Positions 1 to 34,321 of a stretch of DNA of 34,321 nucleotides are shown piece by piece. Source of the stretch: a virus. The DNA is taken from the IMG/VR virus record IMGVR_UViG_3300032092_000123, positions 1 to 34,321 of that record; one strand, 5' to 3'. Every line of letters starts with the position of its first letter. Position 1 is the stretch's first letter. The position numbers and the translations under genes are program-made. A model generated the notes under the pieces. It was not told the DNA's origin and did not search any database. It saw only the letters and a program-made list of their open reading frames with translations.

Positions 1-306
1 ATTTTGCTGCAAATTAATACCCTCAGCTAAAAAATAAACGACTCGAGCGTAATATGGATAAACCTTTTTAATCATTATCCTATCTGTGAGCTTGTCGATT
101 TCCGCCTCGTATTTTGCTTTGTATACCTCCGCATCCTTTTCCTCCGCCTCGTAATACTCATAATAAGCACTCTGAATATTTACAAGCTCTTGGGGTTTTG
201 TAGGCTCTACAAAGTTTAAAAAGTCGATGTACTGCTTCAGGTTCACGTCCGCCAAAGATTCTGGAAAGGTAAATTTACCGCCCTCGCTGGTATTATACGT
301 CTGCAT
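1..306 (-). CDS. Tail assembly chaperone, N-terminal part (gene split by the ends of the circular map)
   Basis: This is the 5' part of a gene that continues at the other end of the window. The ATG is at 306-304, after a stop overlap of 14 nt with the preceding 121-residue gene. It reads MQTYNTSEGGKFTF, then an acidic, Tyr/Glu-rich helical stretch, and runs into MIKKVYPYYARVV, which is the same sequence found at 34235. Joining at the 121-bp identity gives an uninterrupted 253-residue frame ending at 33705. The last 40 bases here (1-40) differ at six positions from the copy at 34161-34200, so residues near the edge are uncertain. The role is inferred from the second half of the gene and the frameshift signal there. 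Confidence 0.7.
   Translation of the reverse strand, partial: MQTYNTSEGGKFTFPESLADVNLKQYIDFLNFVEPTKPQELVNIQSAYYEYYEAEEKDAEVYKAKYEAEIDKLTDRIMIKKVYPYYARVVYFLAEGINLQQN
41..161. repeat. Left copy of the terminal 121-bp identity
   Basis: These 121 bases are identical to 34201-34321. The flanking bases 1-40 align with 34161-34200 at six mismatches. The identity marks a circular map of about 34,160 bp. Confidence 0.9.
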
Positions 307-658
307 TTTTCTTTTTACCTTTTGCTTTCGCCTCTCTAAATTCGTCCGTTTCGCTTACCGCTAAAACGTTATTAAGCTCCTCAATATCAAATTGTGAAAC
401 CTTTACGTCCTTATTCCTGAGCTTGGCAGCATCGATTAATGAAATTGGCTTTTCCTTTAGTACGACGTTAGCTGTTAAGGCGTTCTCCTTTATAGCTATC
501 TCCCTTTTGAATTTGTTTTCATTCTTTAGGATACCTTTGTGCTTTCCCTTCATATATAGGGCGGTTTGGTTGAATAATGATTTTGTGCTAAAGTCGTGAG
601 AATAGGCATTCAATATTGCCATCCATCTTGCACCGACCTCGAATTCCTCGTTTGTCAT
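293..658 (-). CDS. Hypothetical protein, 121 aa, between terminase and tail chaperone
   Basis: The chosen start is MTNEEFEVGARW at 658; a longer in-frame version would overlap the upstream membrane-protein gene and adds an unlikely basic leader. The product is rich in Lys, Glu and Asn, with no membrane segment or recognisable catalytic motif. The C terminus (EFREAKAKGKKKNADV) is strongly basic. It follows the 83-residue membrane protein by 17 nt and overlaps the tail-chaperone start by 14 nt, so it belongs to the late packaging and tail operon. By position it may be a small virion or neck protein, but nothing in the sequence proves that. Confidence 0.6.
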   Translation of the reverse strand: MTNEEFEVGARWMAILNAYSHDFSTKSLFNQTALYMKGKHKGILKNENKFKREIAIKENALTANVVLKEKPISLIDAAKLRNKDVKVSQFDIEELNNVLAVSETDEFREAKAKGKKKNADV

Positions 659-675
659 AAAATTGTATTTAAGTA

Positions 676-927
676 TTAAAAAAATTGAGTTACTATTATC
701 GCCCCTGCAGCGTATCCGAGCCCGTAACAAAAAGCAAGTTTCGCTCTCTGTCGGTTGTTCTTAGCTTCGATTTGGTACGCAAGGAAGGGAAGCGAGAGAA
801 ACGGACCAATAAAAGCCCAGAATATCATCTTAAACATTGACTTTTCCGCTACTGCAGTAATATAAAACGTGCTCGCTATTTCGATTATAAGCGCAGCAAT
901 AAACAGAATGATATATTTCCTACCCAT
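676..927 (-). CDS. Small membrane protein, 83 aa
   Basis: The protein has three hydrophobic stretches: about residues 4-24 (IILFIAALIIEIASTFYITA), 34-52 and 66-82. Between the second and third lies a charged loop (EAKNNRQR). It starts inside the 3' end of the large terminase gene (8 nt overlap), so it is translationally coupled to it. Small membrane proteins in late operons can be holins, superinfection-exclusion proteins or lysis accessories. No motif allows a choice, and a separate UviB/BhlA-like holin candidate lies at 13913-14437. Confidence 0.6.
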   Translation of the reverse strand: MGRKYIILFIAALIIEIASTFYITAVAEKSMFKMIFWAFIGPFLSLPFLAYQIEAKNNRQRAKLAFCYGLGYAAGAIIVTQFF

Positions 928-2110
928 AGGCTAAAATGTTTTTACTATGACCTTTTTTAAGCATTCCGAGAGCCCAATATCTGCAGGCATCCCAAGCGTG
1001 ATTGAAAGCGTCAACGGGTTGGGGTAATTTTCGCCCGTCCTTAGTTTCCTTCCATTTGTAATTTTGCGCCTCCTTAATCCAGTTTATGCTCTGCTTTGAT
1101 ATATTTACTTTTCCGAATTGCTTAATAAGATTTATCGAATAAGCGACCGAGTCCGCTCCTTTATCTGCAGGGTGAATATTCCAACCGTACATCTTTAGCT
1201 CTGCGATGCTTTTTGGGTCGGCTGAGTCCGCAAAGATTGTGTCTTGTTTTCTTATTCCGAACTCCTTTAGTAAGTTGTTTATATCTCGATTTGTGAGCCC
1301 CGTTTGATATATTACCTCCCTGACAAATATCTCCCCCTCCGATACTCCGCACTCAACCAAAGTGGTCGGGTCGTTGGTGAAGCCAAAGTCCATACCGAAG
1401 CCGTATTTATCTAAGTGGGTCGGCATTTGGTCAACTATTCTATAATCAAAAACAGCCCCCTCAATTTTACCAGTCTGCCCGAGCCCGTATACCCTCCAAA
1501 GCATCGGGTCCTTTTCTTTTAATGCTAATATTCCGTCGACTATTGACTGACTGACAAAATGATTATGCATAAAGTTGGAAATAAAATAAGCTGTTTGAGG
1601 TTGCCCAATTAACTTTTCGTGAGCCCAGAACTCTTGGTTCGGGTTGTAATCGATAAAAACTTTCTTTGACGTCCTAAGGTTCAACTCGTTAAATATGTCC
1701 CAGTGTACCCCGTTTGCCTCGTTTACAAATAAAACTTGTCGCTTTCCGTTCTTTGCATCCTGAGACGTTTGGTAGGAGGTAAACTCAATAAGTGAACCGT
1801 TGTTAAATTTATAGCTCTTTGTACTTTTATTAAATTGCCCGTCAAGGCTTGCCAGTATGAAGGGGGTTTCCGATACAATTTTTTCGCTGTCCCTTATAGA
1901 GCCCTTTGCGAGGTTTGGGTAGTCCTGACCAACAACCGTAATAATCCAACCCTCATTCTCGATAGCCAAAACAAAAAGAACCTGCATTATTGCATATGTT
2001 TTCCCCGCTGCCGTTCCGCCTTGATTTATGCAAATAACCTTTTTTGAGGGGTCAACATTTGCGAAAAGCTCGGGGGTTTTGTTCCACCTAAAGAGTGAGG
2101 TTGTGTTCAT
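920..2110 (-). CDS. terL: Terminase large subunit
   Basis: This is the ATP-driven DNA packaging motor with its headful or cos-cutting nuclease. The N-terminal ATPase has Walker A GGTAAGKT at residues 31-38, Walker B VLFVNE at 126-131 and a downstream VFIDYNPN strand near 151-158. The C-terminal RNase H-like nuclease shows Asp241 in GMDFGFTNDPT, Asp295/Asp298 in FADSADPK, and Asp374 in NHAWDACRYW. At 396 residues it is typical of the PBSX-like terminase families, though slightly short. Its start overlaps the small-subunit stop as ATGA (2107-2110). Both nuclease and ATPase residues are intact, so it should be functional. Confidence 0.93.
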   Translation of the reverse strand: MNTTSLFRWNKTPELFANVDPSKKVICINQGGTAAGKTYAIMQVLFVLAIENEGWIITVVGQDYPNLAKGSIRDSEKIVSETPFILASLDGQFNKSTKSYKFNNGSLIEFTSYQTSQDAKNGKRQVLFVNEANGVHWDIFNELNLRTSKKVFIDYNPNQEFWAHEKLIGQPQTAYFISNFMHNHFVSQSIVDGILALKEKDPMLWRVYGLGQTGKIEGAVFDYRIVDQMPTHLDKYGFGMDFGFTNDPTTLVECGVSEGEIFVREVIYQTGLTNRDINNLLKEFGIRKQDTIFADSADPKSIAELKMYGWNIHPADKGADSVAYSINLIKQFGKVNISKQSINWIKEAQNYKWKETKDGRKLPQPVDAFNHAWDACRYWALGMLKKGHSKNILAYG

Positions 2111-2442
2111 TGCTCAGGTTTAAAAGGGAGTTTTTCTTTGCCCTCAATAACATTTATAGTAAAATCGATTTTCTCTCCCTCTGCCCCCGTTATTTCCGTT
2201 TTCTGCGTCGGCTTCCCGTAGGTATAACTCAACAACATTTCGACGGCTTTTAAATCCCCCTTGAGGGCTTTATTAACTACAACGGTCATTAAGCCATCGA
2301 TAAGCTGGCTATTGTTTTTCTCTTGGCTCAGTAGGTCTTTGAGTACCTCTTTAATGTCTCTAAGCGAGCCCTTCGGTCTTCCGTTCGGGTTTCCCGTTTG
2401 CCCTTTTTTGAATTTAAACTTTTGAATATCCTCTTTACTCAT
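2107..2442 (-). CDS. Putative terminase small subunit (DUF5681-like N terminus)
   Basis: The preferred start is MSKEDIQKFKFKKGQ at 2442 (111 aa); an upstream ATG at 2520 would overlap the previous gene. The N terminus carries the pattern KKGQTGNPNGRPKGS, which defines the DUF5681-type domain often found just before phage terminase genes. A helical region with DLLSQEKNN and VEMLLSYTYGKPTQK follows. DUF5681 plus the ATGA overlap with the large terminase supports a DNA-recognition role in packaging. I see no clear helix-turn-helix, so the small-subunit call rests partly on position. Confidence 0.7.
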   Translation of the reverse strand: MSKEDIQKFKFKKGQTGNPNGRPKGSLRDIKEVLKDLLSQEKNNSQLIDGLMTVVVNKALKGDLKAVEMLLSYTYGKPTQKTEITGAEGEKIDFTINVIEGKEKLPFKPEQ

Positions 2443-2461
2443 ACGTGCTGTTTTTGTGCTG

Positions 2462-2770
2462 TTATACTTTAGCCCTGCCAGTCGCAGCGTGAAGCTTTGA
2501 ATAATCTCTAAACCCTGCAATATAGCTCTTATAGTTAATATACTTTTGGTTGTCTAAGTTCCTATAATACCAATCCGTAATAAGCTCAGCGGGTTGGTTC
2601 GTGTCTATGTCGGTACGTATGTCGTCAAAGTCAAAGTAAAAGTCCGATATGACTGCAATTGTCCCTATTTCGTTACCAATCCACCCGTCGAACAAAAGGT
2701 CTTGTTTATCGCAAAAGGCTTCGACGTACGCCTCACAAACTTTATCGTATTGTTTCTTAATATTTTTCAC
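2462..2770 (-). CDS. Hypothetical acidic protein, 102 aa
   Basis: The start codon is GTG at 2770 and overlaps the TGA of the preceding 56-residue gene (GTGA), as expected for coupled translation. The protein is rich in Asp, Tyr and aromatic residues (DFYFDFDDIRTDIDT), with no recognisable domain. It ends 20 nt before the putative small terminase start. It is probably an accessory protein of the packaging segment. Confidence 0.55.
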   Translation of the reverse strand: MKNIKKQYDKVCEAYVEAFCDKQDLLFDGWIGNEIGTIAVISDFYFDFDDIRTDIDTNQPAELITDWYYRNLDNQKYINYKSYIAGFRDYSKLHAATGRAKV

Positions 2771-2937
2771 AATTGCAATAATTTTTTTAAGTCCTCAAAT
2801 ACCCCGCTCAGGTTATCAATCTTCGACTCGAGCTGCTCATCGCAGGGGTTGTCCATTTGTACCCAGCTGAGAGCTTCCAGAAATCCCCTTAGGTACTCGA
2901 ATTTCCGTTTTAATCTTTGTCTTTCCGTGTGAGTCAT
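2767..2937 (-). CDS. Small hypothetical protein, 56 aa
   Basis: The ATG at 2937-2935 overlaps the TGA of the upstream gene (ATGA), and its own TGA (2769-2767) overlaps the GTG of the next gene. The two four-base overlaps fill the space between 2770 and 2934 exactly and are strong evidence that it is translated. The protein begins MTHTERQRLKRKFEYLRGFL and is charged and helical, with heptad-like leucines towards the C terminus (LSGVFEDLKKLLQL). It may be a short coiled coil. Function unknown. Confidence 0.6.
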   Translation of the reverse strand: MTHTERQRLKRKFEYLRGFLEALSWVQMDNPCDEQLESKIDNLSGVFEDLKKLLQL

Positions 2938-3395
2938 TTTTCCAAGCTTTCTACTTTTCTAATTGCCCAAGCGATACCCTCATCTCCGCCCCAAGCGTCC
3001 CACATCAACCCGCCACAACCCTCATTATAGGGTCGGTCCTTATTCTGTTTGTGCCTTATAAATGCTGCCATCCTTTTGATTGTTTCTAAGCTTATCGGCT
3101 CTCGGTTCGCTAACTGGTTAGCCCGTGCCCATCCGACAAGAGTCCCGCACCCTCTCGGGTTGCCGTTTTCCTCTTTCCACTTTAGAGCCCTCTTTGCATT
3201 GTTGACGGCTGACTCTGGGTAATCGGTAAAGCTTTCGCCCCGCACCTGAGCACTTTTTTCGCTCTCGTAAGTAATTGAGCAAACTGCATAACGTTGCCTT
3301 ATGTCGGTGTACTCTGATTGCATTATCTTGCTCTCCATACATCGATTAATAAAGTCGTCGATATTTTCTCCTTTTTTTGGAAGTGGTATTGGCAT
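2934..3395 (-). CDS. Phage protein with KGE...RCM and GCGGLMWDAWGG motifs, 153 aa
   Basis: The N terminus (MPIPLPKKGENIDDFINRCM, then QRYAVC) matches a short leader motif common on phage head-protease and packaging-associated proteins. The second half contains AVNNAKRALKWKEENGNP, GWARANQLANREPISLETIKRM, AAFIRHKQN and EGCGGLMWDAWGG, a conserved domain found in many phage structural loci, alone or fused to prohead proteases. Conserved Cys, Trp and His residues suggest a compact fold. I do not know its biochemical function. It lies between the TET/JBP-like gene and the terminase genes, with a 1-nt gap on one side and ATGA coupling on the other. Confidence 0.65.
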   Translation of the reverse strand: MPIPLPKKGENIDDFINRCMESKIMQSEYTDIRQRYAVCSITYESEKSAQVRGESFTDYPESAVNNAKRALKWKEENGNPRGCGTLVGWARANQLANREPISLETIKRMAAFIRHKQNKDRPYNEGCGGLMWDAWGGDEGIAWAIRKVESLEK

Positions 3396-3396
3396 A

Positions 3397-4239
3397 TTAT
3401 TTATTTTGAGTATTATTTCGTGGGTCTATATTTTCAGCTCTTTTCTTTGCTCTTTGAGTGCTTAATTTTTGCAGCCTTTCGACTTCCATTTTAAAAGGAT
3501 AGCAATGCTTCATATTTTCCAAAGTATAATAAACTATCGAAGCACGATAAGGGTTCTTTTTAGTTTGAATAATAGGCATCACCCCGTGAATTTCATTTTG
3601 CCCGTCAAAAACTGCTAAGCAGCAATCACCTTGCTCGAGTGCGAAACCATATTCAGGAAAAACAAGTTCGCCCCCTAAAATTCCGTCTTTTAAAATTAAA
3701 ACGTTTGAAAGGTTGCCTCTGAAATTTCCCGTGTCTTTGTGGTATTTTATAGCGTGGTTGACATTTATATTTGCCGTTGTAAATGGTTGATTTTCATTTA
3801 ATAAATAATCATTATTTACATTTTCTTTAATTACATTTAAATCGTGATTATATTGCTCAGGTAAATATTTTTCATAAATACTGGTTAAAACCTGCATAAA
3901 AGTAAAAAGCCTCTGAGCGTTTAATTTTTCTGATTTCGTTTTTTCTGAGAATCGACAATAATCATTCCTTAGTGGAATTCTGGGAAGCGAACCAAAGACA
4001 CTTGATTGAGTAGGTAAAGCTCTTCGAGTTCTATATGTTTTGACATATTTTGTTTCAAGTGTAGCCTTTCTTATTTCGTTTATTAATTCGTGCTTAATCT
4101 TTATATAAATACCGACAACCTTTCCATTTTTTGTAAATAAAGTATCACTATCAATTAAAATTGAATAATCACTTTTTGCAGGCGTTTGCTTTATTAAGTT
4201 ACTGCAATCTTTAATTTTTACAAGTTCAAATGTTTTCAT
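3397..4239 (-). CDS. TET/JBP-like 2-oxoglutarate/Fe(II) dioxygenase (DNA base oxygenase)
   Basis: The double-stranded beta-helix signature is clear. The iron ligands are His167-x-Asp169 in AIKYHKDTGN and distal His218 in NEIHGVMPI, and the 2-oxoglutarate-binding Arg is probably Arg232 in YRASIVYY. Between them lie GGELVFPEYGF and EQGDCCLAVFDG, as in the TET/JBP family, and an upstream stretch around residues 84-97 (GSLPRIPLRNDYCR) also fits. Family members hydroxylate 5-methylcytosine or thymine in DNA, often as the first step of hypermodification. The gene is more AT-rich than its neighbours, which suggests later acquisition. It overlaps the ParB-like gene by 14 nt, so the two are co-translated. 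Substrate is not determinable here. Confidence 0.8.
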   Translation of the reverse strand: MKTFELVKIKDCSNLIKQTPAKSDYSILIDSDTLFTKNGKVVGIYIKIKHELINEIRKATLETKYVKTYRTRRALPTQSSVFGSLPRIPLRNDYCRFSEKTKSEKLNAQRLFTFMQVLTSIYEKYLPEQYNHDLNVIKENVNNDYLLNENQPFTTANINVNHAIKYHKDTGNFRGNLSNVLILKDGILGGELVFPEYGFALEQGDCCLAVFDGQNEIHGVMPIIQTKKNPYRASIVYYTLENMKHCYPFKMEVERLQKLSTQRAKKRAENIDPRNNTQNK

Positions 4240-4858
4240 TTTCCATAATTTTTAAAATAATTTGACTATTATCTTCGAGGTTGTACTTTAATTGCTTTGC
4301 TTCAAACCATTTTACAACTTTCTCAAAAGTTTCATTTTCATAAACCAAAAACATTCTTTTTAATTCTGAATTCATAAACTTATCGAGCTTACTCAATTGG
4401 TCTAAGCCCTCGTAATCTTCATTATTTGTTAAATTATCTATAAAGTTAGGAACTTCCATCCCCCACTCCTCCAGTTCCAGAGCATCCCACTCATTAGCCA
4501 AATTTTCCCAGTCATTCTCCCCGAAAGCGACATTGTCCTTAATCGTAATAGCTCGCAATTGTTCAGCTGAGTAGTCCGCAGGAAGTACCTTGCAGGGTAG
4601 CTCTTTATATCCGAGTTCCTTACAAGCCGTGAATCGCATATTACCCCCGATAATAACAAATTTATCATTATACGGGTAAACAATAAGCTCCCGAGCCCCA
4701 AGCATTTCGGGATTGCCCTCGATAGACTTTTTTAGCTTTTCGAACTTTGCGTCCTTAATTAAGCGAGGGTTTTTTGGTAGTCCGTCAATCTGCCCCTTGT
4801 TCTGCTCAATAGAGCTAACTTGGATTAACTTACTTTTGATAATTTCAATTTTTTGCAT
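4226..4858 (-). CDS. ParB-like (ParB/Srx fold) protein, 210 aa
   Basis: The N-terminal ParB-like domain shows an initial strand KIEIIKSKLIQVSSIEQN, a basic NPR motif (KNPRLIKD), and the ParB box as VIIGGNMRFTACKELGYKELPCKV near residues 68-91. The tail EQLRAITIKDNVAFGENDWENLANEW is the usual continuation in phage ParB-like proteins. The superfamily includes nucleases, CTPases and kinases, so activity cannot be fixed. It is the first gene of the late operon, starts about 20 nt from the divergent promoter and overlaps the TET/JBP-like gene. That pairing suggests a role in DNA modification rather than partition. Confidence 0.75.
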   Translation of the reverse strand: MQKIEIIKSKLIQVSSIEQNKGQIDGLPKNPRLIKDAKFEKLKKSIEGNPEMLGARELIVYPYNDKFVIIGGNMRFTACKELGYKELPCKVLPADYSAEQLRAITIKDNVAFGENDWENLANEWDALELEEWGMEVPNFIDNLTNNEDYEGLDQLSKLDKFMNSELKRMFLVYENETFEKVVKWFEAKQLKYNLEDNSQIILKIMENENI

Positions 4859-4870
4859 TATATTTGTACT

Positions 4871-4904
4871 TTTGATGCGAATATAGAATTATTTTGTAAA
4901 TTTG
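4871..4904 (+). promoter_or_regulatory. Bacteroidetes-type promoter of the single plus-strand gene
   Basis: TTTG at 4871-4874 and an exact TAnnTTTG box (TAAATTTG, 4897-4904) lie 22 nt apart. The ATG follows 20 nt after the -7 box, leaving a short A-rich leader without a Shine-Dalgarno sequence. The element interleaves with the minus-strand promoter at 4878-4909, so the two may exclude each other. Confidence 0.65.
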
Positions 4905-4909
4905 TCAAA
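4878..4909 (-). promoter_or_regulatory. Bacteroidetes-type promoter of the late packaging/tail operon
   Basis: Read on the minus strand, TTTG (4909-4906) is followed after 20 nt by TATATTCG (4885-4878). This is one mismatch from the Bacteroidetes -7 consensus TAnnTTTG, and the spacing agrees with the -33 TTTG. It lies 20 nt upstream of the ParB-like start codon and diverges from the plus-strand promoter over the same bases. Confidence 0.6.
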
Positions 4910-4924
4910 CAAAAACGTTAAATT

Positions 4925-5257
4925 ATGAAAAATCTTAAAACTTGTGTCGTTATTGCTGCCGAACTTATTACGAGCATCGGGAAAGTAGTTGAGGACAAAA
5001 AAGTCCAATTTTCGGAAATTCTGGGCTTGGCTCCTGAGCTTTTTAAAATACCAAAGTTGGTGTCGAACCTTGATGAGGCAATCCTCGAACTCAAGGCGGG
5101 TATCTCTCCAGAATATGCAAACGAGATTAAGTCGGAGGTTGCTGCGAGGCTAAAGCTCGATAATGCCAAAGCCGAAATTATAGTCGAGGCAACAATTAGT
5201 TGGTTGCTCATTACATCGAGTACCGTTATGCAAACAATATCTCAGTTAAAGAAATAG
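4925..5257 (+). CDS. Conserved-type small phage protein, 110 aa (only plus-strand gene)
   Basis: The product begins MKNLKTCVVIAAELITSIGK and continues with EDKKVQFSEILGLAPELFKIPKL. Small proteins of this style (hydrophobic helix, then a DGK.....D..KL segment) occur in many flavobacterial phages without known function. The C terminus is again helical and hydrophobic (IIVEATISWLLITSSTVMQ), so membrane association is possible, but no clear single-spanning segment is visible. It has its own promoter (4871-4904) and terminator (5286-5310), which makes it an independent unit facing away from everything else. A regulatory or lysis-related role is possible. Confidence 0.75.
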   Translation: MKNLKTCVVIAAELITSIGKVVEDKKVQFSEILGLAPELFKIPKLVSNLDEAILELKAGISPEYANEIKSEVAARLKLDNAKAEIIVEATISWLLITSSTVMQTISQLKK

Positions 5258-5285
5258 TTTTTCATTTTAGTTTTTTAGAAGTGTG

Positions 5286-5310
5286 CCCCGTAGAGATACG
5301 GGGTTTTTTT
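5286..5310 (+). terminator. Rho-independent terminator of the plus-strand gene
   Basis: A perfect 7-bp stem CCCCGTA/TACGGGG with a GAGA loop is followed directly by seven T residues (5304-5310). It lies 28 nt after the stop codon of the plus-strand gene. Confidence 0.88.
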
Positions 5311-5314
5311 ATGC

Positions 5315-5342
5315 AAAAAGCCGTCCCAAAGTTGAGACGGCT
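5315..5342 (-). terminator. Rho-independent terminator at the end of the early operon
   Basis: On the minus strand the stem AGCCGTC (5342-5336) pairs with GACGGCT (5325-5319) across a 10-nt loop and runs into TTTTT. It lies convergent to the plus-strand terminator, four bases away, so the two transcription units are insulated from each other. Confidence 0.82.
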
Positions 5343-5371
5343 AATAATAACAAACAAACTACAGAAAGGAA

Positions 5372-5473
5372 CTAAATTTTATTATTATAGTTACCGATTT
5401 TTTGTTTTGCAGTCGCTAACATAGTAATTCCGACTCCAAGAAAAAAACCAGTACATAAAGAGAATAGTATCAT
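5372..5473 (-). CDS. Possible 33-aa membrane peptide
   Basis: An ATG at 5473-5471 opens a 33-codon frame (MILFSLCTGFFLGVGITMLA, then TAKQKIGNYNNKI) that ends at 5372, just before the early-operon terminator. It has one clear N-terminal transmembrane segment of about 20 residues and a basic tail, a common form for small phage membrane peptides. The leader is A/T-rich, like those of other genes here. Evidence is limited to its shape, its place between RadC and the terminator, and the lack of any other gene there. Confidence 0.45.
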   Translation of the reverse strand: MILFSLCTGFFLGVGITMLATAKQKIGNYNNKI

Positions 5474-5493
5474 TTTATTGAATTTTAAAGGGT

Positions 5494-5928
5494 TTATAAA
5501 TAACAATTGTCACGGAAAGAAAAATAATTGCTCTCAGTCAAGATTATGTGGTCCAATACCTTAACATCGAGTAAATCAAGAGCTTTAACAATCTTATTCG
5601 TAATTTCAAAATCTTGCTCACTGGGGCGAAGGTTTCCGCTCGGGTGGTTGTGAGCTAATATAACCCCGCTTGCAAGGTTTTCGACTGCATACTTAGCAAT
5701 TAGTTTGATATCGACAATAGTTGAGCATATTCCGCCCTGAGATATTTTTGCGTAGCCAGTTGTCTCGTTTCTCCTGCTCAGGGTTAAAATAAAAAAACTC
5801 TCAAATACGTTTATATCCTCAAAGTAAAATTGGCGTATAAAATCTGCGCTTTGCTTGCTCTCGCTTATTTGTATGCTCGGGAATTCTGATTGAACTTTTT
5901 TAAGCGTGAAAAGTGGTGTCGTTTTCAT
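5494..5928 (-). CDS. radC: RadC-like JAB/MPN-domain protein
   Basis: The JAB/MPN metalloprotease-like core is complete: Glu44 in VFESFF, His93 and His95 in ILAHNHPSGN, Ser98 and Asp106 in RPSEQDFEI. The product (144 aa) lacks the N-terminal helix-hairpin-helix of bacterial RadC, as is usual for phage and plasmid copies. RadC-family proteins are tied to DNA processing and anti-restriction loci, but their reaction is unsettled. Its leader has two tandem decamers (TTTGAAGTGT and TTTAAAGTGT on the plus strand, 5931-5950), shared with other early genes. It is the last large gene of the early operon. Confidence 0.85.
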   Translation of the reverse strand: MKTTPLFTLKKVQSEFPSIQISESKQSADFIRQFYFEDINVFESFFILTLSRRNETTGYAKISQGGICSTIVDIKLIAKYAVENLASGVILAHNHPSGNLRPSEQDFEITNKIVKALDLLDVKVLDHIILTESNYFSFRDNCYL

Positions 5929-5951
5929 TGTTTGAAGTGTTTTAAAGTGTT

Positions 5952-6431
5952 TTATCGAATATTTAAAGATACATTTTCCACAATAAGAGCCCCGTCGATT
6001 ATTTGACCTCCCTCGAGTGCTTCCTTTAATGCTGTTTTGTTCGGCTCGGTCTTAATACGCAAAAATTCGGTCGGGATAAGGCTTTCGTCCGTAATTGATA
6101 CAGACTTACTCTTCCTGCTCGATATTGTCACAAAAGCCGTTTTTATTTGCCCGTGAGCGATAACTGACTCGAGTAGCGTGTCGGCTAATTTGTCGGCCGA
6201 GGTTTCGTAACGTTTTGCTATCTCCTGCAGGCGTTTTATTTCGCTTTTAATCAGCTCCGCTTGAGACTTTAATTGCTTAATTACATAAACATACCCTTCG
6301 CCTTTAGTAAGTCGCTCAGACTCGGAAATTTCGAGGGCTGCCTCGAGCTCTGGGGTCATTTCTCCCCCGTTGTTTTCAATCTCGTTGTAAATTTCGTACA
6401 ACTCCGCATCGATGTTAAATAGATTTTTCAT
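5952..6431 (-). CDS. Gp157-family (siphovirus Gp157) protein
   Basis: The 159-residue product has the Gp157 layout: an N-terminal acidic helical region (NIDAELYEIYNEIENNGGEM), a long coiled coil with KSEIKRLQEIAKRYETSADKL, then ITDESLIPTEFLRIKTEPNKTALKEAL and GALIVENVSLNIR at the end. The family is widespread in phage early regions and has been linked to phage resistance in Streptococcus thermophilus, but its molecular role is unknown. Two tandem TTTGAAGTG elements (6434-6452 on the plus strand) lie directly before the ATG. The gene sits downstream of the terminator that closes the 6500-6775 unit. Confidence 0.85.
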   Translation of the reverse strand: MKNLFNIDAELYEIYNEIENNGGEMTPELEAALEISESERLTKGEGYVYVIKQLKSQAELIKSEIKRLQEIAKRYETSADKLADTLLESVIAHGQIKTAFVTISSRKSKSVSITDESLIPTEFLRIKTEPNKTALKEALEGGQIIDGALIVENVSLNIR

Positions 6432-6452
6432 TGTTTGAAGTGTTTTGAAGTG

Positions 6453-6480
6453 AAAAAAATACGGTTTGAGGCTGACCGTA
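6453..6480 (-). terminator. Terminator of the 91-aa cassette gene
   Basis: On the minus strand TACGGT (6480-6475) pairs with ACCGTA (6465-6460) and is followed by seven T residues. An alternative GGTTT/AAACC stem overlaps it. The same layout, with related sequence, occurs at 23670-23701. Confidence 0.7.
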
Positions 6481-6499
6481 AACCTTAATGTTTTGATTA

Positions 6500-6775
6500 T
6501 TATCTTAATTCATAAGCAAAAAGACATTGAAATTCTCCGTTTTTATCTTTTTTAAGAAATGGTTCATAGTCACTTGTTTTATAAATATCTTCTGTGTCCC
6601 AGAATTCGCTATTAAATGCCACCTTATAATCTAAAAACATTATAATAACTGGGTGCTCCTCGCCATAAATTGGGTGTTCAATTAATTGAATTTCTTGACC
6701 ACGTTTGTTTTTGAATTGCGATAAAATTGTTGGAGACAAACTTTGTAGTTTAGTGAAATTTAATTTCTGTAACAT
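6500..6775 (-). CDS. Hypothetical protein, 91 aa, in a moron-like cassette
   Basis: The start MLQKLNFTKLQSLSP at 6775 is preferred; an ATG further up lies upstream of the promoter-operator and would not be transcribed. The product has no recognised domain, with HPIYGEEHPVIIMFLDYKVAF in the middle. It is AT-rich and is enclosed by its own promoter-operator (6819-6856) and terminator (6453-6480). This matches the cassette at 23670-24164 and is typical of a moron, a phage gene carried with its own regulation. The leader has an ACACTTCAAAA element 15 nt before the ATG. Confidence 0.65.
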   Translation of the reverse strand: MLQKLNFTKLQSLSPTILSQFKNKRGQEIQLIEHPIYGEEHPVIIMFLDYKVAFNSEFWDTEDIYKTSDYEPFLKKDKNGEFQCLFAYELR

Positions 6776-6818
6776 AATCTTAATTTTTTGAAGTGTGTAA
6801 ATATTTATTTCCGTATTT

Positions 6819-27700: not shown

Positions 27701-28218
27701 TTGCCCTCACTATTTCTTAATTGCCCCGCAAAAGCCTCAAAACCAGGGATTGATGCATAAATTACTCGGGTAACTCTTGCAAATGTTTTGGGATAATTAC
27801 CGACATTTCTTTGAAACTGCCCGACCTGAGCGTCCGCCTTTTTTAACGTTTGGTCGAGTTGCTGAATTTCTTTTTTTAGCTTGTCGAGTTCCTCCGCACT
27901 TTTCGAACCATCAAGAGCAGCGTTCTTAAATTCCTTCCTAAGCCTATTTAATTTAGCACTCGCTTTGTCATACGCCCCGAGCGAACTTTCCTCTAAGAAT
28001 GATTTATTGACGTCGTCCTGAGCCTTTTTAAGAGCCTTTTGCTGAGCCGTTAATTTTCCAACCGTTTCGCTCAGTTCCTTAAATTCCTTTTTACCCTCTT
28101 CGGTTGTCAAATCGAGAGCGTTCATTTGTTTTGTAGTGTCTGAAATTGCAGCGTTCAAAGAATTTATTGAATTTATGCCGTCTATTTCGATTGTAAAACC
28201 GACTACCGTTTGTGCCAT
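24769..28218 (-). CDS. Tail tape measure protein, 1149 aa
   Basis: The protein is long, Ala/Lys/Glu-rich and mostly coiled. The N terminus, VGFTIEIDGINSINSLNAAI, is followed by a coiled coil (KLTAQQKALKKAQDDVNKSF). Hydrophobic Ala/Gly segments lie around residues 385-500 (VLAAVSVALGVFTLAMNAGR, ALTGLVAAGTAVAAYTAV), as in tape measures that insert into the host membrane. The middle has long charged coils (KQQQKEFDEQSKRDEEKRKA), and the end has a GG-rich stretch (RGGVVGMGDEVVQFANGG). At about 0.15 nm per residue a tail near 170 nm is expected, which fits a siphovirus. No peptidase domain is seen. Confidence 0.88.
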   Translation of the reverse strand: MAQTVVGFTIEIDGINSINSLNAAISDTTKQMNALDLTTEEGKKEFKELSETVGKLTAQQKALKKAQDDVNKSFLEESSLGAYDKASAKLNRLRKEFKNAALDGSKSAEELDKLKKEIQQLDQTLKKADAQVGQFQRNVGNYPKTFARVTRVIYASIPGFEAFAGQLRNSEGNLNTFGKALTIGFVAFQAANLINKAITNLEEFNKKVNETRMTVMEFSGLYGESLDNVAAQTSALANTFGTDAKTISAAAKSLAQSMGISFEEAVGKLEGALVEGRGNANDYLEKIKEMPAAFVEAGAEVSELAKDNRRLLDSNRELASSQIETAKKSKDLILTFKEFKNAAGGAIINVLLALFNALSPIGKAFFELGKSVYDFISTLIGLFVPAGQSVDLFQLIGTTIQFILSPITFLINLMAGIYKAMTSIAPVLAAVSVALGVFTLAMNAGRIAAALSSAALVIYNGAVIAYTAIINTAKAAQLAFNAAVRANPLGLALTGLVAAGTAVAAYTAVTDENTDAVNENTDAQKKAEEEMKSKMQADEKAAAEKMKQQQKEFDEQSKRDEEKRKAQQQAEDDARKYTEAVKKLTDERNKFLENEVQVRKNTLALIAELQARYIEENIKNIKDDRERQLKEIQLNGEKQLKTLDEQFAKFQDENKKRLAEGQKQLQEAIKLALNPKEIQKIRDDNAKAIKEAAEEEKSVAAEVGKIKKEIVQQTETDISNAKAGFRKDDLEKELETAEQLRDFRDRILEEELDYIDMVGEMRDLKNKETLNKLLKNEKDAKKREELIRLAAEQETADKIANIRNKIQALDDAEAQMLDENGKLKVGIKQEEYDAVLLARQRLKTELSDIENQETKNVKKNADEQLAARKKSFEDALNVIKDFTDVFFDALNVANERQEARYDEALERSQQRQDRLQEEIDNSTGLRRRFFEEQLETEIANAQKLEQAKEELAKKAAKQQKAQAILQSIINTALAVSAAYFTPPAPNIPAAVIAGILGAAQTGIIAAQPLARGGVVGMGDEVVQFANGGKVTSGGNIKPLSNGDNVLATLKTGEVVLNQSQQKRIGYRALKAAKIPNFATGGLVGAPSGFLTDQLNSISEEANRLNVMQNLIIETQNRIDRLQVVYTASTEDQVDKARNERKEIRVTAQI

Positions 28219-28219
28219 A

Positions 28220-30364
28220 TTATACGTTTACTTTTGATTGTATTTGTGTATTTTGAATTCTGTCCTCAGCGTCCACCTCTTTAAAATCTTGTATTAAATA
28301 AGTCTTTGTTGACCCGCTTTTCGATACATTAAAAGCGTTCACCTCCTGCAGGATATAAGTATCTGAGTTTATTATTACCCTATGTCTAAACGTTAAATTT
28401 TGTATCATAACTATGTCCCAGTACATATAAATTTCGAGCTGTTTGCCATTCTGCCAACGTACCAACTCAGGTAAATAAAATCGTTTCATTAACCCAGAAA
28501 TATTAAACCCGTTAACCACGTCGTCCGAAAAGCTGAGCGAAGTCTGGAATCCTGCCGTGTCATTATAATCGACCATATATGTCGCAGGGGGTTGGTTTGG
28601 AGCGACCCCGCCCGAGGTTTTGACATTTGCCAAACCATTATACCCCGCTATAAGTTGCTCGCTAATCATAAGTCTTGGCAATACGTCAATATTCTTTTGG
28701 GTACTCGTCGACGTTTCAAGGTAATTTGTCGACCAAATTATCGGAATAATTACGTCTTTATCGCTTCCAGTTGCTTTTATCTCACTATCTACTATTGTAA
28801 TGGTCGGAGCAAAAAAAGGATTTTCGAGGACGTTCGGGTTGGTACTAAACCTATTCGGTTGGAAGTTGTATCGAGCCTGCAGGAGCCCGACGTTTTGCCC
28901 CTGATTCATTGCCTCGATAGTTGCGTCGTTGTTGTCCTCCTTCCAAATTAAAGTGATTGAGCTGTCCATCTTAGTCTCAGAAACAAGCTCACCGCCTTTG
29001 AGTAAATCTACCTTATTTGTGAGGTTGTCGTTGCGATAATAAAAGCCCGTTTTGAACTCCCGAACGTTTGGAAGTGGGAAAGCTCTGTCCTCTAATAAAT
29101 AGCGGTCTGCAGGGTCGATACGTACCGACCTCGCCCCCTCGTCTGTTTCAAAAACTAAATTGAAAGCGTGAGCAAGTCCTTTGATAAAATCTAAAGCGGA
29201 CCAACGTTTATTGATTAAGTATTTAAAATCTAAATTTATATTGTCGGCTATTTCTGCCTCCCCTATTATGTCATAATAAAAATCTAATTCAAAAGGTGCT
29301 GAACCTAACCCGAAAGATAAACCCATTGCAAGAGTATCACCCTGAGTTAAATTTAGTACAAAGGAATAATTTAATATTGAATCTACATTTATTACTGGTT
29401 GTTCAATATATGTCCAAGTAGGTGGGAAAGTAGTCCATTCGCCATTTAAACCATAAAAAAAACTTGGGTCGACCGAACCCGCTACATTTGTAAATATTGC
29501 CTTTAAAGAAATTAAATAAAAGCCAGTATAAGGAGCTGTATAAATACCAGTCAAAGGGTCGTAAGGGTTCGGTCCAATTGTAGGAGCAACCGTCTGAAAA
29601 GGAAAAACAAAAGGGTATTCAATAACATTTATAGGAGGATTCCATAAATAATTAGCACTTATATTCAAATACTCAATACCAAACTCTGGGTCATTTATTG
29701 TATTGCTTAACGGAATTGATAAAATCAATTTACTAAACCAATCCGTCGTAATAAAATTGGAAGCTATTGTGTACCCTATCGAAGCGAATATCTTTTCCAA
29801 AATATGCCTGACAAAAAGAGCGGGAGTTGACTCCAAAGCATCCGCCTGCCCAAATACGTCCCAGTCCCTCCACTTAATCAAAACATACTTATAAAAGTCC
29901 GTTGCATAGGTATAATCCCACGCCAAAACAATAGCATCCCGCTCGTAAAGGTGTGAGCCGAAATCGAGTTGGTAAAGGTAGGTCGTTTTGAGCCTTATCG
30001 CCCAGTCTGAGTTATTGCCGTAAAAAGCAACCTTGTAAGTTTTGCCCTGCCAACTATAAAGGTCTGGTCTAAGTGTAACCGACTGAAGTTGACATTTACC
30101 TATAAAAAAGGGTTGCCCGTCAACCTCGATACTCGCATCTAAAAAAACCTGCTCATTTATTGTTATGCCTCCAACGTCCCAGAACCTATTAAAAATATCG
30201 TCATTTTGTTTCGTAGAGGGTAACTCGAAAGAGTACTCCGACCGACTGCCCGTGTTAATATTCAACCCGTCCCGACTCCTAAGCGAATAGGTCAAAGGTA
30301 GGTTGAGCCCCTGCGGGGGAAGGTCTGCCAGTTTTCCGTCGATAATTACCCGTATATCTGCCAT
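28220..30364 (-). CDS. Large tail-tip/baseplate protein, 714 aa
   Basis: The N terminus, DIRVIIDGKLADLPPQGLNL, has a beta-rich opening (IDGKLADLPPQGLNLPLTYS, ELPSTKQNDDIFNRFWDVGG) like distal-tail or Tal-type proteins of flavobacterial phages. A middle stretch with YTGFYLISLKAIFTNVAG is beta-sandwich-like. The last 300 residues include KRWSALDFIKGLAHAFNLVF and FYYRNDNLTNKVDLLKGGEL, as in hub proteins. It lies next to the tape measure with a 1-nt gap. It probably forms the tail tip. Confidence 0.65.
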   Translation of the reverse strand: MADIRVIIDGKLADLPPQGLNLPLTYSLRSRDGLNINTGSRSEYSFELPSTKQNDDIFNRFWDVGGITINEQVFLDASIEVDGQPFFIGKCQLQSVTLRPDLYSWQGKTYKVAFYGNNSDWAIRLKTTYLYQLDFGSHLYERDAIVLAWDYTYATDFYKYVLIKWRDWDVFGQADALESTPALFVRHILEKIFASIGYTIASNFITTDWFSKLILSIPLSNTINDPEFGIEYLNISANYLWNPPINVIEYPFVFPFQTVAPTIGPNPYDPLTGIYTAPYTGFYLISLKAIFTNVAGSVDPSFFYGLNGEWTTFPPTWTYIEQPVINVDSILNYSFVLNLTQGDTLAMGLSFGLGSAPFELDFYYDIIGEAEIADNINLDFKYLINKRWSALDFIKGLAHAFNLVFETDEGARSVRIDPADRYLLEDRAFPLPNVREFKTGFYYRNDNLTNKVDLLKGGELVSETKMDSSITLIWKEDNNDATIEAMNQGQNVGLLQARYNFQPNRFSTNPNVLENPFFAPTITIVDSEIKATGSDKDVIIPIIWSTNYLETSTSTQKNIDVLPRLMISEQLIAGYNGLANVKTSGGVAPNQPPATYMVDYNDTAGFQTSLSFSDDVVNGFNISGLMKRFYLPELVRWQNGKQLEIYMYWDIVMIQNLTFRHRVIINSDTYILQEVNAFNVSKSGSTKTYLIQDFKEVDAEDRIQNTQIQSKVNV

Positions 30365-30365
30365 C

Positions 30366-31622
30366 TTAATTCTGTTGTACGCTTATATTATTTGATTCGA
30401 CAAAGTTAATTGTAACGTTCAAAAGTTCGTTATTTTCTGAGGTCGTTATGCTGCTATCCGTAATAACAACCGCAACCAACCCGTCCGAAGTTTCAAGGTA
30501 TACCTCAGGAGAACTTAAAAGCTCAGCAATCCAAAGACCTTCAGCTTCCGTATAAAATTTACTTTCGACCTCATACTCTACCGATACATCTTGAGCAATT
30601 TTAAAGAGCCCCCTATCGTAAATTGTCGTTGGTGGTGTGTTATAGGTCCACGTCTGGGGAACTTGAGCCAATTCGGATTTATTCTTTTGCTTGATAGTCT
30701 TTTTGCTGCTAAAGGTGTATGCATCCGCCCCTCCTAACCTATTAAGCCAATGCAATCGAGTTGAACGCTCAGCGCAACACTCAATTTTTTTAAATACTCT
30801 ACTTTCAGATGCCTGAACAAAAAGCCAATTGCCCCCGATTAAATAAGCATTGCCGACATACACTCGATACTCTGCTAAATTAGGGTCTGACATATTAACT
30901 GAGCCGTCAAAATATACCTGAGTCGCAAGGTTTATCATTCCAACCCCGATAGTTGTCGGGATTAAATTTGCGTTTGGAGTAATAGAAAAAAGCCCGCTAT
31001 CAATAAGCACTCCCCCAGAGTCGACCGTTTCAATTCTAACAGCATTGCAAAGGTTAGGGATAAAGCTAATATAATGATTTTCATTGGAGCAAATCGGGTA
31101 CGGGTTCCCAATTACATTTGGAAAGTTAGTTAAAAAAGGAGTAGCAGCCGAGCCCGTCACCATACTATAAGCATCCATTCCCATAGCTGCGAAGTTTCGA
31201 GTTTGCCTCGTTCCGTTCGTAGCAGGGTAACCCGTGCTAATTATGTCCGTTGTTATAAATTGGGTTAATAAGCCCGTCACGGGGTCATTGTACAAATATG
31301 ATATGATAAGCCCGACTTGAGTGTGGCAATCCGTATTTGAGACGTTTAAGGGCACTCCTAAAGTGTCAGGAAAGACCGTTGTTTTTGCCGTGCTTTTTGG
31401 AGCTGAGTAGGTCTGCAAAACCTTTGCCACGTCAAACTCAAAATAATAAGTCGTGCCGATAAAATACAAAGGGCTTTTTGACATAGACGTCACCCCCACG
31501 GAATCGACCACAATCGACGCCTGAGCCAAAACTAAAGCGTTTGCACTTGTCATACTTACCAAAAACTTATTCGGTCTGTATTGACTATTTAAAGCAAAAG
31601 GCGGAGCAGTTACTAAAGGCAT
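30366..31622 (-). CDS. Tail protein with LNRLGG motif, 418 aa
   Basis: The product begins MPLVTAPPFALNSQYRPNKF and contains RSTRLHWLNRLGGADAYTFS, the LNRLGG motif found in tail proteins of Bacteroidetes phages, then TYNTPPTTIYDRGLFKIAQD and VYLETSDGLVAVVITDSSIT. The order of beta strands suggests a distal tail or minor tail protein. It lies between the 714-residue tip protein and a 104-residue gene, with short spacers. The exact role is not known. Confidence 0.6.
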   Translation of the reverse strand: MPLVTAPPFALNSQYRPNKFLVSMTSANALVLAQASIVVDSVGVTSMSKSPLYFIGTTYYFEFDVAKVLQTYSAPKSTAKTTVFPDTLGVPLNVSNTDCHTQVGLIISYLYNDPVTGLLTQFITTDIISTGYPATNGTRQTRNFAAMGMDAYSMVTGSAATPFLTNFPNVIGNPYPICSNENHYISFIPNLCNAVRIETVDSGGVLIDSGLFSITPNANLIPTTIGVGMINLATQVYFDGSVNMSDPNLAEYRVYVGNAYLIGGNWLFVQASESRVFKKIECCAERSTRLHWLNRLGGADAYTFSSKKTIKQKNKSELAQVPQTWTYNTPPTTIYDRGLFKIAQDVSVEYEVESKFYTEAEGLWIAELLSSPEVYLETSDGLVAVVITDSSITTSENNELLNVTINFVESNNISVQQN

Positions 31623-31624
31623 AG

Positions 31625-31939
31625 TTATTTATTTAAGTAGTCGTTTAATTCGCTGTCCTTTGTTGTATTGTTATTAAACTCATTAACAAAAGATTCATAG
31701 CTTGTCGGTTCTCCCAGTTGAGACCATAAAGAAACACGGGCAAAAGCTAATTTTTGGCTATCCGTTGCACTTTCATAGTCTGCGGATAATGCCGTTGGTA
31801 TCATTACAACGTTATATAATTTGTAAAAGTCAACACTCCAAAAGGCAAAGACTTTGTAAGTGGCGTAAATGTCCGCCCCTGCATCTTTTAAAGTATCATT
31901 GAGGCTTTTCGCCAATAATGCTGCATCCGTTGAGTTCAT
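31625..31939 (-). CDS. Small tail/neck protein, 104 aa
   Basis: The helical product contains TDAALLAKSLNDTLKDAGAD and KLYNVVMIPTALSADYESAT, ending in NEFNNNTTKDSELNDYLNK. No family is recognised. ATGA coupling (31936-31939) ties it to the gp10-like gene upstream in the transcript. It is probably a neck or tail-completion accessory. Confidence 0.55.
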   Translation of the reverse strand: MNSTDAALLAKSLNDTLKDAGADIYATYKVFAFWSVDFYKLYNVVMIPTALSADYESATDSQKLAFARVSLWSQLGEPTSYESFVNEFNNNTTKDSELNDYLNK

Positions 31940-32481
31940 ATGTTAGAATATTTTATTTGTAGTGAATCGCTGCCTTTCTTTTTTACATCCGCAAAAGCAC
32001 CGACAAAAAGTAAACTTATAAGATTTTCGAGAGCGTCGCTTATCAGAGCTTGCACCTCATCGGAACTATCTTTGATTGCATTGTCAACCGCCCCGATTTT
32101 ACCGTCTAAAGGCATCCCCTTCTTTTTTTGTTTATAAGCAATGGCAAAAGCAATCCTCTCCGCTTCCTTATCATTAACACTAAAACGCAATTTTGCATAA
32201 GCTTTAAGCCCGTCGATATACTTTGAACTTTTCGCTCCTGAGTTTGGGCTAAAAGGAATTCGCTCAGGTGTAACTCCATAATTTAAAATCATTCCGTAGT
32301 CCAAAAGCGTGAACTCAATATAAGCACTATTGACCGTCGCTTTGACATTATAGTCGATACTATTAACCAAAGCGCCCGTAAGCTTTCGCCCCTGCAGGAT
32401 AAAAGCCTTTTTAACTGCCTCAGTCACTACCTTTCCGATATCCTCCCCGAGCTTTTGATATATTTGTTGTTCTTTGCTCAT
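31936..32481 (-). CDS. HK97 gp10-like neck protein, 181 aa
   Basis: The protein begins MSKEQQIYQKLGEDIGKVVT and has KKAFILQGRKLTGALVNSID, YIEFTLLDYGMILNYGVTPE and KAYAKLRFSVNDKEAERIAF. The KLTGALVNSI...Y...Y...G pattern resembles HK97 gp10-like tail-component proteins, which act at the head-tail joint. The C-terminal ~50 residues are acidic and hydrophobic (VQALISDALENLISLLFVGA). It is coupled by 4-nt overlaps to both neighbours. Confidence 0.65.
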   Translation of the reverse strand: MSKEQQIYQKLGEDIGKVVTEAVKKAFILQGRKLTGALVNSIDYNVKATVNSAYIEFTLLDYGMILNYGVTPERIPFSPNSGAKSSKYIDGLKAYAKLRFSVNDKEAERIAFAIAYKQKKKGMPLDGKIGAVDNAIKDSSDEVQALISDALENLISLLFVGAFADVKKKGSDSLQIKYSNI

Positions 32482-33332
32482 TGTATTAAAATAGAATTGC
32501 TTGTTTGACTTGCTGACCCTACTATATTAGTTGCTGTTACCTCGCAAGTTATTATTTGACCTAAGTCAGATAATACGGTTAAATACTGGGTATTTGTTTC
32601 GCCAACAATATCCACTCCGTTTCTTTTCCATTGATAGGTAAATATTATCGGTAATGTTCCCGTCCACGTTCCATTGTCAATAACTTTTAATAAGGAGCCT
32701 ACCAAATTCTTTCCAGCTATTATCGGAGGCGATGTGTTAACTGGTGCGCTCGGTAGCTCCTTTTCTAAGTCAGTGACCACTGGGGGTAAAGAATTAAAAG
32801 GGCTCGGAAGGGCTGCAATGTCAACCGTATCGATAGGACATTCCCAGACATACCAAATTGTAAATTGTATATCGAGCAAAACTAAATTTTCATTATGTGC
32901 GTCACTCAAGTAGTCAATCCGAATAGGGTTTTGTACTCCCGTTTGCATATGGTTGGCAGGAAGACGGGCGACTCTGTTATATTCCGAAAGTATGTTTATT
33001 GCAAGGGCTTCTAAATCCGCCTGAGCTTCGACAATGGATTGATTAACATATTGATTTTGGTTGTCATAATATTGCTGCTTACTGACTACCATACGACATT
33101 GTAAAGTACCCTTGACCGACTTTTCTTTTATCTCGATGTTTGCCGTTGGGTACATCAATTGAACCGCAGGATAAACCCTGCCGAGAGCATTGTTACCCGT
33201 CCAATTGTTTGTAATATTTGCGTTAATATCCGAATACCAACCATAGTGATAAAAACCTATTCGCCCAGCTGTTTGTTGGTTTATGCCGATGCAAACTTGA
33301 TTAAAAAGGTTCGATATTTGTACTATATTCAT
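32478..33332 (-). CDS. Neck/tail protein with C-terminal Ig-like domain, 284 aa
   Basis: The first ~190 residues (IVQISNLFNQVCIGINQQTA, IGFYHYGWYSDINANITNNW, GTLQCRMVVSKQQYYDNQNQ, LVLLDIQFTIWYVWECPID) look like a tail-completion or terminator protein. The last ~85 residues form an Ig-like domain: VGSLLKVIDNGTWTGTLPII, FTYQWKRNGVDIVGETNTQY and QIITCEVTATNIVGSASQTS. Such domains are common accessory modules on virion surfaces that bind host sugars. It is coupled by 4-nt overlaps to both neighbours. Confidence 0.6.
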   Translation of the reverse strand: MNIVQISNLFNQVCIGINQQTAGRIGFYHYGWYSDINANITNNWTGNNALGRVYPAVQLMYPTANIEIKEKSVKGTLQCRMVVSKQQYYDNQNQYVNQSIVEAQADLEALAINILSEYNRVARLPANHMQTGVQNPIRIDYLSDAHNENLVLLDIQFTIWYVWECPIDTVDIAALPSPFNSLPPVVTDLEKELPSAPVNTSPPIIAGKNLVGSLLKVIDNGTWTGTLPIIFTYQWKRNGVDIVGETNTQYLTVLSDLGQIITCEVTATNIVGSASQTSNSILIQ

Positions 33333-33529
33333 AGGTTATTATGCATTTTAGCGACCACAAAGCCGAGTAAAAACAAAAGAGCTGATGATATTGCCCTTAC
33401 TACATCCGTTCCAACCAATACCGCTATAATTAGCGCAGCCGTGCCAAAGATACTAACTAAAATAATAATCGACGTCAATAATATGTCAGGTCTCAGCCTC
33501 ATTTTGTTACGATTTTTAAAGGTTCTCAT
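33329..33529 (-). CDS. Small membrane protein, 66 aa
   Basis: After a basic start (MRTFKNRNKMRLRPDILLTS) two hydrophobic segments follow, ILLTSIIILVSIFGTAALII and VVRAISSALLFLLGFVVA. The product probably spans the membrane twice. It overlaps its neighbours by 4 nt on both sides. Holin, antiholin or another tail-associated membrane role are all possible. Confidence 0.55.
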   Translation of the reverse strand: MRTFKNRNKMRLRPDILLTSIIILVSIFGTAALIIAVLVGTDVVRAISSALLFLLGFVVAKMHNNL

Positions 33530-33819
33530 TTTGTTTCGTTAAGCTTTCTTTGGTAATCCGACTCCGCTTTGCAGGCTGCGAGGTATGTAAAAGCTTCGTA
33601 TAAATCCGCCTGCTCTGCCGATTGTAAGGGGGTCATATCTGGTCGGTTAAAGATACCACTTTCCGCAATTGTTTTGAGCGTCAAGTACCAACCGAACTGC
33701 TCGTTTAGTCGTTCGACTCCCGCTTTAATTTCCCTAAATCCTGAGCTTGAGTATAGGCTCGCAAACTTAGAATAGATATTTCGCTTCGCTTCAGAAAAAA
33801 AAAAGATACCCTCAAACAA
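33526..33819 (-). CDS. Frame -1 extension of the tail assembly chaperone (long product)
   Basis: This frame opens at 33819 only with a TTG codon and reads through the T10 run into SEAKRNIYSKFASLYSSSGF, ending LNETK. Its real use is probably as the C-terminal 89 residues (33795-33529) of a fusion made by slippage on the T run. It matches the usual pattern of a short G product and a longer GT product in tail chaperone genes. As a stand-alone gene it lacks a normal start. Confidence 0.65.
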   Translation of the reverse strand: MFEGIFFFSEAKRNIYSKFASLYSSSGFREIKAGVERLNEQFGWYLTLKTIAESGIFNRPDMTPLQSAEQADLYEAFTYLAACKAESDYQRKLNETK

Positions 33820-34321
33820 TTTTCTAAACTCCAGTTCATAAACATCTCTTCACGCTTCATTAAAGCATCTGAGTATATTTCCCCTTCTTTGCGGACCAAT
33901 ACGCACATAATTTTAGCAAGAGCAAGCCAATTGCCGTTCTCCAAATCTTTCATATTAGCCTCGAACTGGGATGCCTCGGCATATTCGATTAACTTTGCCT
34001 TTTCCATATAGCGCAGGGGTAAATACCAAAGTTCATTGTCTACCAAAATTACATTCGAGTATTCAGGCTCTTGAATATTGTTAAGTATTTCGACCACCCT
34101 CGAATAAAGAAACTGCAAGTGTCCGAGGTTCATACCGTCCCCGTGCTTTTTACCTCCTAAAATTTGCTGCTCAGTAATACCCTCAGCGAAAAAAGAAACG
34201 ACTCGAGCGTAATATGGATAAACCTTTTTAATCATTATCCTATCTGTGAGCTTGTCGATTTCCGCCTCGTATTTTGCTTTGTATACCTCCGCATCCTTTT
34301 CCTCCGCCTCGTAATACTCAT
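33705..34321 (-). CDS. Tail assembly chaperone, C-terminal part of the zero-frame product
   Basis: This is the body of the gene that begins at 306 across the join. It continues IMIKKVYPYYARVVSFFAEG and contains KHGDGMNLGHLQFLYSRVVE, LPLRYMEKAKLIEYAEASQF and NGNWLALAKIMCVLVRKEGE, then MFMNWSLENCLRVSFFFL. The order of a mixed alpha/beta domain, a conserved L-A-x-I-M-C-x-L-V segment and a hydrophobic FFF just before the slip site is typical of tail assembly chaperones, which coat the tape measure. The zero-frame protein is 253 aa; the slipped form would be 313 aa. It lies several genes upstream of the tape measure. Confidence 0.7.
   Translation of the reverse strand, partial: EYYEAEEKDAEVYKAKYEAEIDKLTDRIMIKKVYPYYARVVSFFAEGITEQQILGGKKHGDGMNLGHLQFLYSRVVEILNNIQEPEYSNVILVDNELWYLPLRYMEKAKLIEYAEASQFEANMKDLENGNWLALAKIMCVLVRKEGEIYSDALMKREEMFMNWSLENCLRVSFFFLKRSEISILSLRAYTQAQDLGKLKRESND
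33795..33804 (-). promoter_or_regulatory. T10 slippery run for programmed -1 frameshift
   Basis: Ten T residues on the minus strand lie at zero-frame codons TCT TTT TTT TTT. A -1 slip joins FFF to SEAKRNIY and avoids the zero-frame stop at 33705. Either ribosomal frameshifting or transcription slippage could use it. A natural or assembly-derived indel is an alternative. Confidence 0.6.
34201..34321. repeat. Right copy of the terminal 121-bp identity
   Basis: This is the second copy of bases 41-161. Joining at the identity restores the reading frame of the tail chaperone gene without change. Confidence 0.9.

Follow-up and report, generated by a model that had tools for sequence, protein, structure and literature searches.

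The window, by which we mean the whole 34,321-bp IMG/VR phage sequence analysed (38.9% G+C), has no GATC, CATG, CCGG, CGCG or CTAG and a single GGCC. These absences are specific to palindromes, independent of codon usage, and lineage-specific among close relatives. The best explanation, to which we give a probability of roughly 0.9, is that the words were purged by purifying selection through Type II restriction enzymes of the host, with several specificities; several such enzymes would have been present in one host population. A preliminary description had suggested selection against several restriction specificities, and the analysis supports this with six words eliminated and a seventh, GCGC, apparently in progress.

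The record represents a nearly complete tailed-phage genome, whose host is probably an aquatic member of the Bacteroidota. The phage encodes a terminase, a portal protein, a head protease and a tape-measure protein (Table 1), and nearly all genes lie on the minus strand. Among the window proteins scanned, which represent part of the open reading frames, structural, packaging and replication genes were found and no integrase was. A megablast search of an annotated phage collection with positions 1–25000 returned no near-identical phage genome.

Table 1. Coordinates of features in the window
Feature	Position	Strand	Remark
GCGC sites (19), scattered	891..34014		
Terminase large subunit (Terminase_3C)	920..2110	-	query for finding relatives
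Conserved 153-aa gene (phrog_2859)	2934..3395	-	terminase-side border of modification cassette
TET/JBP-type oxygenase (PF12851, E 2e-17)	3397..4239	-	swappable modification cassette
ParB-like protein	4226..4858	-	opposite border of modification cassette
RadC-like JAB protein	5494..5928	-	occupies the place of the DNA methyltransferases of G001, G002 and G004 beside Gp157
Siphovirus Gp157 family protein	5952..6431	-	holds the sole GGCC
Sole GGCC	6195..6198		inside Gp157-like gene; GGCT there in G001 and G004
N6/N4 DNA methyltransferase (PF01555, DPPY motif)	8530..9285	-	G001 has no aligned counterpart at this place
ERF-family recombinase	12785..13471	-	
Portal protein	17112..18506	-	
ClpP-type head maturation protease	21135..22214	-	
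Tail tape-measure protein	24769..28218	-	

Words were counted against a second-order Markov model on both strands and against 500 shuffles of synonymous codons within genes (30.9 kb of coding sequence), which keep protein and codon usage. The counts are 0 for GATC (Markov expectation 61, codon-shuffle mean 60.0), CATG (53 and 44.8), CCGG (76 and 34.9), CGCG (36 and 37.5) and CTAG (41 and 49.3), and 1 for GGCC (56 and 36.0), at position 6195. GCGC occurs 19 times against a Markov expectation of 41, and its coding part holds 18 copies against a codon-shuffle mean of 52.1, about threefold down. The observed values of these seven words were reached in none of the 500 shuffles. The control palindromes are normal or higher than expected, with observed and Markov counts of 89 and 82 for GTAC, 93 and 92 for ACGT, 170 and 170 for TCGA, 157 and 155 for TGCA, and 178 and 203 for AGCT. 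The preliminary description had listed GATC, CATG and CCGG as absent and GGCC as occurring once near 6197. These counts were confirmed, lying far below the Markov expectation and below anything that codon shuffling produced; the list was incomplete, as CGCG and CTAG are also missing. Its remark that other palindromes are common applies to GTAC, TCGA, TGCA and ACGT, but not to the depleted GCGC.

Across all tetramer classes, only the six words fall to 25% of expectation or less, and no non-palindromic tetramer is wholly missing. The six are recognition sites of Type II enzymes, namely DpnII/MboI (GATC), NlaIII (CATG), HpaII/MspI (CCGG), ThaI/BstUI (CGCG), BfaI/MaeI (CTAG), and HaeIII (GGCC). 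The window hence combines two features of Type II site avoidance, a significant lack of words against a compositional null and the identity of these words as palindromic Type II sites. The sole GGCC is a private synonymous change at the third position of a serine codon (TCA to TCG on the minus strand). Some longer words are depleted as well, including CCWGG (4 seen, 15 expected from the codon shuffle), GGNNCC (10 and 34), and GCSGC (3 and 24.5). The non-palindromic CGCCG (0 and 24) and ACAGG (1 and 47) are also depleted; this would not be expected from ordinary Type II systems and counts against the best explanation.

A bias in mutation or codon usage, of the phage or of its host, with no selection by restriction, is a highly improbable cause of the pattern. 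Some codon-context bias does exist, as ACAG is seen 91 times and expected 209 times from the codon shuffle. However, the shuffle retains 35–60 copies of each missing word, which largely refutes such a bias, and among tetramers a zero count is found only for palindromes, with GTAC, TCGA, TGCA and ACGT normal. The bias also fails on relatives having 80% identical terminases, in which GATC is near normal; CATG differs between two of them that share 87% identity.

The terminase search found 10 viral contigs at 32–96% identity, and the eliminated subsets of words differ among close relatives. G001 (terminase 96% identical) avoids all six words and has normal GCGC. In G002 (80%), CCGG, GGCC, CGCG and CTAG are nearly gone, GATC is seen 63 times against 87 expected, and CATG 40 against 76. 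The same four words are nearly gone from G004 (80%), which has 3 CATG for 62 expected and a normal number of GATC (77 for 82). G005 (79%) is low in CTAG and CGCG and has 35 CATG for 87 expected, the others being nearer normal. CCGG and CTAG are gone from G007 (75%), and GATC, GGCC and CTAG are nearly gone from G008 (63%). In a comparison set of 67 sequences, each 9 kb or longer and with fragments and bacterial loci included, the window's six is the largest number of eliminated palindromic tetramers. An artefact of assembly or sampling, e.g. from restriction-digested libraries, is hardly credible: the record is a virus contig of a public collection with no isolate, yet G001, a separate record with 82% identity in the aligned part, shows almost the same word profile, and other relatives from the same collection contain the words.

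CTAG is rare in 32 of the 67 sequences, whatever else is eliminated. Its absence is therefore weak support for a host enzyme; the rarity need not require one, which counts against the best explanation for this word. The rarity of CTAG in bacteria and phages for structural reasons, together with loss of GATC through methyl-directed repair or signalling, forms an explanation of its own that dispenses with restriction. It gains from the behaviour of CTAG and from phiX174, which also has no GATC and is discussed with regard to mismatch repair (PMC5014478). We consider it very unlikely, as it leaves the loss of CCGG, CGCG, GGCC and CATG and their lineage-specific switching unexplained, and GATC in G007 is about twice as frequent as expected (195 against 100).

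Other words deviate among the relatives. GTAC is under-represented in G007 (L116; 28 against 63 expected). In G008 (L117, L118), palindromes with ACG, TCG or GCG are almost absent, and hardly any are expected from the trimers, while CCGG exceeds expectation (52 against 36), an indication of unusual CpG usage. The non-palindromic CAGG is eliminated in six of the 67 sequences, among them L086 (G019; 0 against 78 expected), L088, L057, L058 and G007 (L116), and CCAG in four, namely G008 (L117/L118; 1 against 169 expected), L027, L066 and L079. Ordinary Type II avoidance does not predict these CAGG and CCAG losses.

We then inspected how sites were lost in aligned DNA. None of the 29, 48 and 49 GATC sites of G002, G004 and G005, respectively, is kept in the window; the kept fractions of TCGA are 36/89, 35/84 and 23/64, about 40%. 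About half of the losses are synonymous, and the others fall in codons in which the protein changes too, in proportions resembling those of control words. The window and G001 align over 11.7 kb with 81.7% identity. Each control palindrome has 37–71 unshared sites in this comparison, and the six words combined have 4; it follows that new sites do arise but are eliminated again, and tolerance of new six-word sites has been near zero since the two phages split. As in site avoidance generally, sites borne by relatives were lost by mutation and new ones were not tolerated. Over the same 11.7 kb, GCGC goes from 21 copies in G001 to 4 in the window, with 13 losses synonymous and near-normal numbers in outgroups. 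This looks like an ongoing purge on the branch leading to the window; GCGC is apparently the seventh word, now being purged in this lineage. A single purge is also seen between G002 and G004, which are 87% identical over 25 kb. They share 31 GATC sites and no CATG site, with 27 CATG in G002 and 3 in G004, so that CATG has been purged in one of the pair.

The preliminary description had further claimed that the selection was long and reached into genes that look recently acquired. The latter claim holds, as none of the sites occurs in three segments lacking an aligned counterpart in G001 (TET, 3407–4441; RadC region, 5378–5924; methyltransferase, 8494–9272). Long selection suits some words, but not GATC, apparently lost on the branch shared with G001, nor GCGC, apparently going now. 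Residual sites of G001 were also inspected for clustering in a segment unaligned to the window, but 3 of 8 in 2.4 kb were too few. Two stretches of the window, 5950–6431 and 9583–10507, are 82–84% identical to G002 or G004 against a background near 74%, pointing to local recombination in the early region.

According to the restriction explanation, the phage lineage would meet hosts whose Type II restriction-modification systems cut GATC, CATG, CCGG, CGCG and GGCC; a CTAG-cutting system is less certain, and a GCGC-cutting one would have been added lately. An unmethylated site in an infecting genome would usually be cut, and newly arising sites would be removed by selection, often with the proteins unchanged, until none remain.

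The locus between the ParB-like gene and the conserved 153-aa gene adjoining the terminase carries DNA-modification genes that differ by phage. The window has a TET/JBP oxygenase there, whose HxD...H...R catalytic residues were found by eye in the translation. Domain and residues are those of a TET/JBP system; DNA modification itself is predicted from the sequence. The cassette consists of a methyltransferase fused to ParB in G001; a DpdA-like transglycosylase, QueC, QueD, QueE and FolE (7-deazaguanine) in G002; a C5-methyltransferase in G004; a TAGT glycosyltransferase in G005 and G012; TAGT and TET in G011 and G019; and a 7-deazaguanine set in G010. In G007, a PAPS-reductase-like gene adjoins a ParB-like gene. 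The first 139 residues of the window's ParB-like protein are 94% identical to the N-terminus of the G001 fusion (L106:12538-13746), after which G001 has the methyltransferase domain and the window has a short tail and a separate TET gene. A clean swap is seen between G010 and G011, whose alignable 7 kb, flanking the locus, show 94% identity. A 7-deazaguanine pathway (L124:4320-8020) and TAGT plus TET (L123:13147-14776) replace each other between flanks that are 91–96% identical. Both phages lack GATC, CCGG and CTAG despite their different cassettes, so elimination outlasts cassette swaps.

Type IV enzymes attacking the phage's own modified DNA, instead of Type II enzymes, might also drive the loss of words. 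In favour, the window has genes for a TET/JBP enzyme and a methyltransferase, and C5-methyltransferases and glycosyltransferases are encoded by relatives. But the same three words are at zero in G010 and G011 with different cassettes, the scanned window proteins yielded no C5-methyltransferase, and phages avoid Type IV sites weakly (Rusinov et al., PMC6286503); this makes a Type IV origin very unlikely. For the Type II explanation, in turn, the phage's own methyltransferase and TET/JBP enzyme count as a difficulty, since they could relieve selection. We also considered whether a modification cassette replaces site avoidance, and found no simple rule across relatives. Few words are avoided by G005 (TAGT), and G002 (7-deazaguanine) avoids a smaller number than the window does; G011 and G019 (TAGT and TET) and G010 (7-deazaguanine) avoid many. 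Coliphages with hydroxymethylated cytosine show little avoidance (Rusinov et al., PMC6286503); the many words avoided by TET-bearing phages here speak against a protective modification of the whole genome, or in favour of a recently acquired cassette. At even odds, the two anti-restriction layers run on different clocks, word elimination being slow and genome-wide (more than ten percent divergence) and the cassette being exchanged whole between near-identical phages; the word spectrum would then be a record of the restriction repertoires that hosts had in the past, and the cassette of their current ones.

The preliminary description had named flavobacterial hosts for comparison; the data support a host at the level of Bacteroidota. 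The best terminase matches in sequenced genomes are mostly from Bacteroidota and at best about 49% identical, so prophages give no host genus. A Shine-Dalgarno-like stretch precedes 1 of 35 window gene starts, and a scan for Bacteroidota promoters (TAnnTTTG with a -33 box) gave few sites. Of 296 Bacteroidota genomes, those with matches to the enzyme families DpnII (GATC), HaeIII (GGCC), HpaII (CCGG) and ThaI (CGCG) numbered 10, 4, 8 and 5, respectively, several of the DpnII matches being short and weak; ICEA, a CATG enzyme family, had one short weak match in 198 genomes. The phylum hence does contain enzymes for GATC, GGCC, CCGG and CGCG, each confined to a few percent of its species (1–3% of the sampled genomes). 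No single genome with all these specificities was found among those searched (296; 198 for ICEA); this and the near-empty ICEA result count against the best explanation.

The window is an extreme case of known restriction-site avoidance, and its swappable cassette belongs to known enzyme families. Avoidance of Type II sites by non-temperate dsDNA phages has been described (Rusinov et al., 2018, PMC6286503, citing Sharp, 1986, and Rocha, 2001), and about one-tenth of viral genomes were found to have eliminated sites wholly or almost wholly. Like those phages, the window is from a dsDNA phage in which short palindromic Type II sites are entirely or almost entirely gone. Unlike in that account, it has lost six tetramers together with a seventh apparently in progress, and its sister phages allow single purges to be ordered relative to each other; in the available text of Rusinov et al., no figure was found for the number of words one genome can lose. 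phiX174 likewise has a short palindromic word wholly missing, but this is one word in a small ssDNA phage in a mismatch-repair context (PMC5014478), against six here. The cassette families of the window and its relatives are the known 7-deazaguanine (Hutinet et al., 2019, PMC6884629), TET/JBP (PF12851) and TET-associated glycosyltransferase (PF20691) systems. They differ from those systems in replacing each other at one locus in close relatives, alongside site elimination; a limited literature search found no earlier description of cassette exchange in this phage group.

From the words that are missing, one could read which restriction enzymes an uncultivated phage has faced, and host restriction repertoires would be predictable from a virus genome alone. 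As individual words are still present in some relatives, partly purged in others and wholly purged in others again, it may be possible to measure in nature how fast restriction drives evolution. The persistence of eliminated words through cassette swaps is relevant to the question of whether one strategy can stand in for the other.
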